From positions 349,001 through 413,000 of the forward strand of contig NZ_CP017037.1 in NCBI RefSeq assembly GCF_001717505.1: a stretch of DNA of 64,000 nucleotides, given 5' to 3'. Within the stretch, counting starts at the first letter, position 1. The number at the start of each line of letters is the position of its first letter. Below, one piece after another: positions 38,593-42,445 of this stretch. This DNA comes from Dialister pneumosintes. GTDB lineage: Bacteria; Bacillota; Negativicutes; Veillonellales; Dialisteraceae. The notes beneath the pieces were generated by a model. It ran no database searches and was not told where the DNA came from. It was given only the letters and a program-made list of their open reading frames with translations. The position numbers were made by a program, and so were the translations under genes.

Positions 38593-38631
38593 AAAAATTA
38601 GAGTATCTCCTAGAAGATACTCTAATTTTTA
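38593..38631 (+). terminator. Rho-independent terminator after the phosphohexomutase gene
   Basis: AAAAATTAGAGTATCT and AGATACTCTAATTTTT form a perfect 16-bp stem around a 6-base loop. Confidence 0.9.
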
Positions 38632-38653: not shown

Positions 38654-38682
38654 TTGAAAATATTAAAAGTAAGTAATATAAT
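38654..38682 (+). promoter_or_regulatory. Promoter of the trimeric autotransporter gene
   Basis: TTGAAA (38654-38659) and TATAAT (38677-38682) are separated by 17 bases, leaving a 5' leader of about 75 bases. Confidence 0.7.
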
Positions 38683-38764: not shown

Positions 38765-41443
38765 ATGCAATATCAAGTAAGTACGAATAAAAATATGCAA
38801 AGTGAAAATAAGATTAGAAAATATCGTTTAAGAGCTAAATTGGCAGTTATGACAATGGTGTCTTCTGTTTTATTAACAAGTGGGATTTGTAGCACGTATG
38901 CAATGGATTTACACTTTTTCCATGTCAATACATCAGATACCGGTGCAACTAGTTCTGAATTGGAGGGGGAAGTTTCTACCAATTACAATAACGACGGTGC
39001 ACCTGATGAAAATGCTATGGCAATAGGTTATATTGCACGTACGAAAGGTAAAAATGCATTAGCTGTAGGTTATAATACAGCTGCTTATGCAGAAAATGCT
39101 CTTGCTATTGGTCATATGGCTCATGCAGAGGGGAATAATTCTTTAAGTATCGGGTATAACAGTCGCATAGAAAACTTAAAGAAGGATATTAATGGTCAAG
39201 AAAGAACAATATATTCGTTTGACTCCGTAGCCTTAGGGTATCAAACAAGTATTATCGGATCCAGCGAATCTATTGCAATAGGTAAGGAAACGAGTGTTAA
39301 TGATGCAGGTAGATTTAATATTGCGATGGGATACCAAGCAACTGTAACTGCTGATGCAAATGAACTAAAAACTGTAGCCAATATTGCTCCAGTAGAAGCG
39401 GGAAGTCAAGAGGTTTCCGGCTACAGTATTGCTATCGGGAACGGGACTAAGGCGAGTGATCAAGTAGGTACTGCTATAGGAGCTTCTTCACGAGCTGTCG
39501 GTAAATATGCAACGGCTTTAGGTGTGCAGGCTTATGGCAAGGGGGAACATTCTCTGGCTATGAGCGGTGCTGCCGCTCTAGGGCAAGATTCAGTAGCGAT
39601 TATGGGAGGTACTACATCTAGCAATGCGAGAGGAGCTATTGCTATTGGAGGGAATACCTCACGTATGCTGGATCCGGAAGTACCCTTATTTGAAGTAAGC
39701 AATCACGCACAGTCGTACGCAGAAGGTGCGGTAGCGATTGGTGTGGGTACTAAAGCTATGAGTGCACATACATTGGCTTTGAGTCAAGGAAAGGCTGCAG
39801 GGAATCATGCTATTGCTATCGGTGGTATGACCGGTAATATAGAACCAATTTCTGATCAAGAAAATTCTTTAGAAGATTATGGGGCGCTTTATGATGACTA
39901 TAAAATAGTAGATTCTGCAGACAATGCGGTAGCGGTAGGACATCAATCTCATGCACGAAAAAAAGATGCTGTGGCATTAGGAAGTCACTCCATTGCTTCT
40001 GTAGCGGAAGGTGTGAATGGCTATAATCCGTTAGAGCGATATAATTTTGCTTATGATAAAAACAGTCCTACCTGGAAATCTACTTATGCTGCATTTTCTA
40101 TAGGACATGGGGATGGCAGCGCTACACGTCAGATTACCGGTGTGGCAGCAGGTAGTCAGGATACGGATGCGGTCAATGTAGCACAATTAAAAGCAGCTAT
40201 GGTAACGTTAGAAGCGGATGAAGGAATCTCTTTAACACGTACTTATAGTTTAGAAAAAGGAACTACCTATAAAATTAAATTGAATTTAGAAGGTGGTACA
40301 ACGGAAACGGCAGATGTACATGTAAAACCTAAAGCATCGGCAGCAGGTTCGAGTGCTGCTCATGATAAGTTAAAAGGAACTACTATGCAGGTGAATGCAG
40401 ATACTGCTTCCGGAGGTAACCATGGAGATGCTACGTTATTTGCAGCGGATAAGGGAAATCCTACTGCCGTCAACCCCACTGAAACTTTACATCTTAATGG
40501 AGATACTAATATTACTACCACATCCAGTGACCATAAGATTGCTATTTCTTTAAATAAGGATTTAAAAGAATTAAACTCTGTAACAGCCACTACTATGAAT
40601 GCAAATACTGTTAATGTAGACAAAGCAGTAAATGTGGCCGGGAAAACTTATATTTCCGAAAAAGGGCTGAATGCGAATGGTCGGAAAATCACAAATGTTG
40701 CTACCGGTGTGGCAGATACAGATGCCGTTAATGTAGGGCAACTCAAGCAAGGACTCACACAAAATTACAATTCCTTATCCAATAAAATTAATAAAGTGGG
40801 AGCCGGAGCTGCTGCGATGGCTATGCTTCATCCCTTAGATTTTGATCCGGACGATAAATGGAGTTTTTCTGCAAGTGTAGGACATTATAAGGGCGAAAAT
40901 GCAGTAGCATTAGGAGCTTTTTATAGACCTAATGAAGATACTATGGTGAGTCTTGGAGGTTCTGTGGGAAATGGGGATGATATGGTGGCCGGATCTGTAA
41001 GTTGGAAATTTAGCCAAAAGAATCATATATCTGTTAACCGTGTTTCTACAGCTAAAGAAATTTTGGAACTACGTAAAGCTTTAGAAGATTTACGTTCTTT
41101 AATTGCTGATGGTGTAGCCGGACGCAATTTGGATTTAAACAAGATTGAAATATTCCCGGATGTGCCGGAAAATCATTGGGCTTATGATTATGTAGCAACT
41201 TTAGCAGGAAATGGGGTATTAGAAGGATATCCGGACGGATACTTTAATGGTAATCGTCAAATGACACGTTATGAGATGGCAGCCGTTATTTATCGTGCTA
41301 TGATGAATGGAGCAAAGATTAATGCCAAGGCTTTGAAGGAATTTGAGCCGGAATTAGATCGATTCCGTGTAGATACTATCAGTTATAATGAAGATGGTAC
41401 ACCGGATATTCAACGAGTTCGAACTATTGAATCTCGTAAATAA
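38765..41443 (+). CDS. YadA-type trimeric autotransporter adhesin with C-terminal SLH domain
   Basis: This 892-aa surface protein has an extended signal peptide (to about residue 47). A long head follows with repeated AIG/ALG-type YadA units (AMAIGY, ALAVGY, ALAIGH, SLSIGY and more). There are two neck motifs, SQDTDAVNVAQLK and VADTDAVNVGQLK, a short coiled coil, and the membrane anchor from about 676 (GAAAMAMLHPLDFD to GSVSWKFSQ). Unusually, the chain continues with a coil (LRKALEDLRSLI) and an SLH domain (about 796-850, FPDVPENHWAYDYVATLAGNGVLEGYPDGYF). It is probably an adhesin that also binds peptidoglycan. GGGGG precedes the start. Confidence 0.92.
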   Translation: MQYQVSTNKNMQSENKIRKYRLRAKLAVMTMVSSVLLTSGICSTYAMDLHFFHVNTSDTGATSSELEGEVSTNYNNDGAPDENAMAIGYIARTKGKNALAVGYNTAAYAENALAIGHMAHAEGNNSLSIGYNSRIENLKKDINGQERTIYSFDSVALGYQTSIIGSSESIAIGKETSVNDAGRFNIAMGYQATVTADANELKTVANIAPVEAGSQEVSGYSIAIGNGTKASDQVGTAIGASSRAVGKYATALGVQAYGKGEHSLAMSGAAALGQDSVAIMGGTTSSNARGAIAIGGNTSRMLDPEVPLFEVSNHAQSYAEGAVAIGVGTKAMSAHTLALSQGKAAGNHAIAIGGMTGNIEPISDQENSLEDYGALYDDYKIVDSADNAVAVGHQSHARKKDAVALGSHSIASVAEGVNGYNPLERYNFAYDKNSPTWKSTYAAFSIGHGDGSATRQITGVAAGSQDTDAVNVAQLKAAMVTLEADEGISLTRTYSLEKGTTYKIKLNLEGGTTETADVHVKPKASAAGSSAAHDKLKGTTMQVNADTASGGNHGDATLFAADKGNPTAVNPTETLHLNGDTNITTTSSDHKIAISLNKDLKELNSVTATTMNANTVNVDKAVNVAGKTYISEKGLNANGRKITNVATGVADTDAVNVGQLKQGLTQNYNSLSNKINKVGAGAAAMAMLHPLDFDPDDKWSFSASVGHYKGENAVALGAFYRPNEDTMVSLGGSVGNGDDMVAGSVSWKFSQKNHISVNRVSTAKEILELRKALEDLRSLIADGVAGRNLDLNKIEIFPDVPENHWAYDYVATLAGNGVLEGYPDGYFNGNRQMTRYEMAAVIYRAMMNGAKINAKALKEFEPELDRFRVDTISYNEDGTPDIQRVRTIESRK

Positions 41444-41460
41444 TATGGAAAATTTTGATA

Positions 41461-42297
41461 ATGGTAATAATCAATAAAAAAACCATAATTTTTATTTTGT
41501 TGAGCGGGATTATAAGTCCTATAGCAACTAATGCTTATAATCCTCCTAATTACAATCATAATTATTCTACTTATTGTACATCGCCCAAAACGCTTTATAA
41601 TGGAATTTTTCCTGTTACTATAGCTAAACTATTTACACATTTTAAGTTATACCAAACCAAAAAAGTAGCCATTAAAGGATATATTTCTTCTTTTGCAGGT
41701 GGAAATATATATATTATTACAGATGAGAATGGCGACACTTTAGTTGTAGATTTAGGCAAACATGGTGGCAAACTACTACATCGTACTCCTTTTGTTGACA
41801 TTGGACAAGTAGCAGATAATGGAAAGAAAGTATGTTTAGTAGCAGATAAAATTATATGGAATGATTTTAATCCTGATGAGGAATATTTTACTTATAAGGC
41901 AAATAATTCTTCGATAGAGTCACCTAAAGTGCTTTTGGAGATTGAACGAGATAAAGCTTTTTATCATCCGTTACCACAAAGTGAAAATAAACACTTTTTT
42001 GTAGTAAATCCCGGGAATATTACTGAAAGTGATTTAATAAATTATGTATATATTTCAGCGCGTGTTTTACAATCAGGGATTCTCCCTATAGGTACAAAAG
42101 TATATTTAACTGGGCGTAACGTAACTACTTATAAAGAGAATATTATGAATTTTTGGGATTCTCAAATGCAAGAAATTAAAGTACATATGAATGGGGCTTA
42201 TATTCCACTTGGGCAAAGAGGAAGTTTTTACGGTACCATACAAAAAAATGAAGAGGGATATTATTTATCATTAGAGTGTGTACAAAGTATTTCATAA
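41461..42297 (+). CDS. Exported protein of unknown function with OB-like segments
   Basis: This 278-aa protein has an N-terminal signal peptide (IIFILLSGIISPIATNA). The segment about 62-95 (VAIKGYISSFAGG, IYIITDENGDTLVVDLG) has the strand pattern of periplasmic OB-fold proteins. A second similar half may run from about 190 (YVYISARVL) to the end (GSFYGTIQKNEEGYYLSLECV). I do not recognise a family. It begins 17 bases after the adhesin gene with no promoter seen, so it is probably co-transcribed. I use ATG 41461; a TTG two codons earlier is possible. GGAAA lies about 11 bases upstream. Confidence 0.65.
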   Translation: MVIINKKTIIFILLSGIISPIATNAYNPPNYNHNYSTYCTSPKTLYNGIFPVTIAKLFTHFKLYQTKKVAIKGYISSFAGGNIYIITDENGDTLVVDLGKHGGKLLHRTPFVDIGQVADNGKKVCLVADKIIWNDFNPDEEYFTYKANNSSIESPKVLLEIERDKAFYHPLPQSENKHFFVVNPGNITESDLINYVYISARVLQSGILPIGTKVYLTGRNVTTYKENIMNFWDSQMQEIKVHMNGAYIPLGQRGSFYGTIQKNEEGYYLSLECVQSIS

Positions 42298-42329
42298 AAA
42301 TAAGACAGCTTTTAGCTGTCTTATTTTTA
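42296..42329 (+). terminator. Rho-independent terminator after the adhesin operon
   Basis: AAAAATAAGACAGCT, loop TTT, AGCTGTCTTATTTTT; a perfect 15-bp stem. Confidence 0.9.
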
Positions 42330-42445
42330 TGATTGATGTATAATGAGATTGCAAATTATACATGGGAATTATCATCAGTAGTTATATAATAAATATATTA
42401 TGAATGACTTTAATTACTATCTTTTTAATAGATAGGAGGAAAAAT

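Follow-up and report, generated by a model that had tools for sequence, protein, structure and literature searches.

An SLH-tailed trimeric autotransporter adhesin of Dialister pneumosintes and a candidate partner gene

Dialister pneumosintes carries a gene for a trimeric autotransporter adhesin in which the YadA-type membrane anchor is followed, within a single reading frame, by a coil, an SLH domain and a conserved tail. We consider it probable (about 0.83) that the three SLH domains of the trimer bind polyamine-modified peptidoglycan, which would attach the adhesin to both the outer membrane and the cell wall. In bacteria without most of the customary outer-membrane tethers, an adhesin with its wall anchor fused on would be able to grip a surface and the wall simultaneously. 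The gene lies in a 64,000-nucleotide stretch of DNA, here called the window, to which coordinates refer unless they are marked as genome positions.

The architecture itself is already known from two descriptions. Poppleton 2017 reported an SLH domain downstream of the YadA anchor in three Veillonella parvula proteins, proposed that this periplasmic domain interacts with peptidoglycan and stabilizes the trimer, and called the anchor-SLH order restricted to Negativicutes (PMC5491611). Béchon 2020 described all Veillonella trimeric autotransporters as having an SLH domain or a coil after the anchor, proposed attachment to peptidoglycan, and noted extra C-terminal domains also in Synergistetes and Fusobacteria (PMC7549365). 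An earlier note on this DNA, which was unsure how far the order had been described, can thus be answered: papers on Veillonella and other Negativicutes already contain both the order and the tether hypothesis. The gene in the window is a further member of this architecture, ordinary in kind. What the analysis adds is modest: the match to OmpM residues, a tail specific to SLH adhesins and a partner gene found almost exclusively beside them. The conserved contact residues and the partner gene provide concrete targets for testing the published hypothesis. As reported in PMC13082670, a 2026 preprint by Dorison et al. finds C-terminal periplasmic extensions and auxiliary proteins to be widely distributed; the tail and the partner gene are possibly already covered there.

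Domain organization of the adhesin

The adhesin frame contains no internal stop codon and no frameshift, and its product is a type Vc trimeric autotransporter with a YadA anchor and a YadA-type head and stalk passenger (Table 1). The Pfam matches to YadA_head (5e-20) and YadA_stalk (4e-19) lie above the curated cut-offs, as do those to YadA_anchor at residues 694-749 (2.6e-11; 43.9 bits versus a cut-off of 22.7) and to SLH at residues 797-839 (4.7e-13; 49.3 bits versus a cut-off of 20.8). The N terminus is signal-like, as judged by reading the sequence rather than with a predictor. At 40794-41443, which is the C-terminal part of this frame, the earlier note had placed an anchor followed by about 140 more residues including a coil and an SLH domain, a reading that a domain search without an SLH hit would have overturned. 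The search bears it out, and 143 residues follow the anchor: a coil (approximately residues 756-784), the SLH domain and a tail of 53 residues. In the classical proteobacterial form of type Vc, the barrel lies at the extreme C terminus; its position here is a known Negativicutes variant, and the SLH-tailed autotransporters of that class share with the window protein the order of YadA anchor and then SLH domain within a single frame.

An AlphaFold2 model of the C-terminal module, from anchor to SLH, describes a single chain, not the trimer, and has a mean pLDDT of 60, with the coil helical at low confidence. A fold search with this model placed OmpM1 of V. parvula (8bz2) first (E 8e-3) and YadA (2lme) third, a result that, at a mean pLDDT of only 60, serves as a weak cross-check.

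The tail carries the motif EFxPELxRxRVDTI...DGxPxIxRVR, and G, E, F, E, D, G, P, R and R are invariant (alignment A4). In the AlphaFold2 model it forms a helix and a hairpin of beta strands, both predicted with modest confidence. When the tail alone was used to search 60 genomes of the class, 22 of the 23 matches were adhesins with an anchor and an SLH domain, and one lay at a contig edge; judging from these matches, the tail appears to occur only in SLH-tailed adhesins. The OmpM proteins encoded in the same genome have a different continuation after the SLH domain. No description of a conserved SLH-specific tail was found in the literature on these adhesins, and our guess is that it is a docking or capping element.

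Table 1. Features of the adhesin gene and its surroundings (window coordinates)
Feature	Coordinates	Strand	Basis
Terminator-like hairpin, end of upstream gene	38593..38630	+	16-pair stem; tail without a clean T run
Promoter-like site	38654..38682	+	Consensus scan; 11/12 matches, spacer 17
Trimeric autotransporter adhesin gene	38765..41443	+	One open frame, 892 codons; Pfam matches to YadA head, stalk, anchor and SLH
Putative signal peptide, approximately residues 1-46	38765..38902	+	Read off sequence; long charged N-region, then hydrophobic stretch
YadA-type head region (repeats), limits approximate	39002..40114	+	PF05658, 3 stretches
YadA stalk/neck motif, best of two stretches	40130..40210	+	PF05662, residues 456-482
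YadA membrane anchor, four beta strands per chain, ending F749	40844..41011	+	PF03895; AlphaFold2 model strands; weak 2lme match
Periplasmic coil, barrel to SLH	41030..41116	+	Helix 66-94 of model; resembles terminal coil of sister adhesin L007
SLH domain	41153..41281	+	PF00395; phmmer to OmpM1 SLH (8bz2), 5.6e-13; residues conserved in relatives
Post-SLH tail, short helix and predicted beta hairpin	41282..41440	+	Alignments; model strands 177-184 and 190-197; tail-only search
Adjacent gene for a secreted 280-aa protein with predicted tandem OB folds (candidate partner)	41455..42297	+	11 bp past adhesin stop; homologues follow SLH adhesins
19-pair inverted repeat after partner gene, likely terminator	42292..42332	.	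Reported on - strand; palindromic

SLH contact residues and attachment to the cell wall

By phmmer, the closest solved relative of the adhesin SLH domain is that of V. parvula OmpM1. Residues W805, Y807, G829, R835 and Y836 match W34, Y36, G58, R64 and Y65 of OmpM1 with identical spacing; for example, the two tyrosines are 29 residues apart in both proteins. The elements W-x-Y and [T/S]RYE are present in all 79 sequences with a readable SLH domain, that of the window included (73 by pattern, six by eye), and the W, Y, G, R and Y positions are invariant in a 46-sequence alignment (A2). In OmpM1, one SLH domain per chain meets in the trimer to give three binding grooves. The proposed sugar contacts in these grooves are W34, G58 and the TRYE arginine, and the proposed polyamine contacts are Y36 and Y65; outside OmpM, Y36 is reported not to be conserved in SLH domains (PMC10628300). 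With these residues matched, the adhesin domain sides with OmpM, and this likeness supports polyaminated peptidoglycan as its putative ligand. Full-length OmpM1 binds the polyaminated sacculi of V. parvula but not those of E. coli, and an isolated SLH-stalk construct gave no sacculus binding (PMC10628300), so that an SLH domain alone is no proof of binding. The literature on these adhesins yielded no residue-level comparison of their SLH domain with the OmpM contacts.

Barrels of the YadA/Hia type are trimers with a periplasmic C terminus; in the YadA type, it is the four strands after the pore helix that put the chain end there. Three chains of the adhesin would accordingly assemble into a 12-stranded outer-membrane barrel and export the YadA-like head and stalk. 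On the periplasmic side of the barrel, each chain would run on into a coil, one SLH domain and the conserved tail. Because the anchor is trimeric, with one SLH domain in each chain, a three-SLH unit like that of OmpM is expected, and this unit would bind polyamine-modified peptidoglycan. Held in this way at both the wall and the outer membrane, the adhesin could bear a pulling force. The earlier note had likewise put the C terminus in the periplasm and proposed a tether from outer membrane to peptidoglycan, and this proposal is consistent with an SLH domain closest to that of OmpM1 in which all proposed contact residues are conserved.

The coil, SLH domain and tail might instead aid trimerization or folding in the periplasm during barrel assembly or export, without bearing load. 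This would agree with the suggestion of Poppleton 2017 that the SLH domain stabilizes the trimer (PMC5491611), with the sister adhesins that end in a coil only, and with the tail, whose occurrence is more closely confined to these adhesins than that of the SLH domain. However, a pure folding aid would not need the proposed peptidoglycan and polyamine contact residues, which are invariant, and the coil-only adhesins manage without an SLH domain. We therefore regard a folding aid as improbable. It is very unlikely that the SLH domain lies outside the cell and attaches the protein to a neighboring cell or to a coat resembling an S-layer: SLH proteins of single-membrane bacteria do sit outside, but the YadA-type topology puts the C terminus in the periplasm, and the best relative is the periplasmic SLH domain of OmpM. 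Finally, a frameshift that brings in the SLH part of another gene, which the earlier note named as a possible objection, or a faulty assembly join is refuted by the single frame and by the same join in many independently sequenced genomes.

The downstream gene

The protein encoded directly downstream of the adhesin has a signal-like N terminus and belongs to no family in Pfam, NCBIfam or PHROGs; a sub-threshold match to the YgiW-type OB fold was the only one obtained. Its predicted fold consists of two OB-like barrels (mean pLDDT 69). The top Foldseek matches are generic OB-fold proteins (nucleic-acid binders, tRNA synthetases and YgiW, 1nnx), with rmsd values of approximately 14-19 Å for most long alignments and 2-3 Å for single-domain matches, and such generic proteins give no indication of function.

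The genomic context is more specific. All 10 homologues in 150 genomes, the window protein included, are encoded directly downstream of adhesins with an anchor and an SLH domain. Among close homologues in 380 genomes of the class whose upstream sequence could be assessed, 16 of 17 are directly behind an anchor-SLH gene, and the single exception (L152) is a truncated frame beside an unrelated gene. Distant partner-like proteins (L155, L156 and L157), which are secreted and adjoin no adhesin, were left out of this count. A tree of C-terminal modules groups all 16 adhesins that have the partner gene in one set of 17 rows with support 99/96; the one remaining row is VtaH of V. parvula SKV38, which lacks a partner and is followed by an acetyltransferase-like gene. 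No description of a partner gene beside SLH-tailed adhesins was found in the literature on these adhesins.

The promoter-like site and hairpin ahead of the adhesin gene and the inverted repeat after the downstream gene flank the pair, which fits a two-gene unit. Since promoter-like sites are no more numerous than in shuffled sequences, this one is only suggestive.

It is possible, if on balance doubtful, that the SLH-tailed sub-lineage to which the window gene belongs is a two-gene system in which the tandem-OB-fold protein is a dedicated periplasmic partner, with a role like that of TpgA or SadB. By analogy with these proteins, it may assist export or anchoring; perhaps it docks on the hairpin of the SLH tail or guides export. 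No library match links it to TpgA or SadB, and it has no recognizable sequence kinship with them.

Distribution and related systems

The 202-residue block of anchor, coil and SLH, searched against 150 genomes of the class, gave approximately 100 end-to-end matches, which fall in the order of the window and in families f14 and f18; identity over the block is about 45-73% across many genomes, a recurrence that speaks against a chance arrangement. In an 84,980-species collection, the 79 loci among the best 80 of 266 relatives are all from Negativicutes, and include Veillonella, Megasphaera, Anaeroglobus, Colibacter, Dialister, Negativicoccus, Mitsuokella, Acidaminococcus, Succiniclasticum, Phascolarctobacterium and relatives; as these are the best 80 of 266 only, the search does not prove that the block is confined to Negativicutes. 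A survey of SLH position in other Negativicutes autotransporters, as the earlier note had advised, found an SLH domain 47-58 residues downstream of 35 of the 144 YadA anchors in 14 genomes of the order, with one to seven such anchors in every genome. Most sister adhesins in the same genomes lack the domain, so a tether is not needed for every adhesin.

The D. pneumosintes genome (1.27 Mb, a single contig) has seven YadA anchors. Only that of the window gene is followed by an SLH domain, and the other six end in a coil-like stretch. The coil of the SLH-tailed adhesin (AKEILELRKAL) resembles the terminal coil of sister L007 (AKEIKELRQQV), which suggests that the SLH domain was gained behind, or lost from, a shared periplasmic coil. 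Two adjacent coil-tailed autotransporters (L001/L002; genome 1152024-1156653) have very similar anchors and are likely a recent duplication. Another YadA-type adhesin (L005; genome 4100-7270) has head and anchor in separate frames, and is broken or switched off.

Five OmpM-type SLH genes lie in tandem at 60.9-67.0 kb (L008, L010-L012 and L014; genome 59412-68537), four of them nearly identical over the SLH domain. There is a further SLH frame of 621 codons at 1113 kb, and one broken SLH fragment. Positions 1416-1825 of L015 (genome 1145772-1148852) correspond to the 5' portion of an OmpM gene, copied with 96-99% DNA identity; the SLH domain is truncated there, and a short stretch rich in histidine comes after it. 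This looks like a decayed sixth OmpM copy.

Among the closest known systems, the OmpM porins (VpOmpM1; PDB 8bym and 8bz2) share with the window protein a trimeric outer-membrane barrel, a coiled coil, and one SLH domain per chain with the same contact residues. In OmpM, however, the SLH domain is N-terminal and precedes a porin barrel, whereas in the window protein the order is reversed, the barrel is YadA-type and an adhesin is displayed. The Acinetobacter pair AtaA-TpgA likewise couples a trimeric adhesin to peptidoglycan in the periplasm (PMC13082670), but its wall-binding domain is a separate protein, TpgA, and that of the window adhesin is fused. Also close are the SLH-tailed V. parvula proteins Vpar_0041, Vpar_0100/VtaG, VtaH and Vpar_1664/VtaI, which combine head, stalk, YadA anchor and SLH domain in one chain and differ from the window protein in their passenger. 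The C-terminal modules of VtaH and the window protein group in one well-supported clade, but VtaH has no downstream OB-fold partner.
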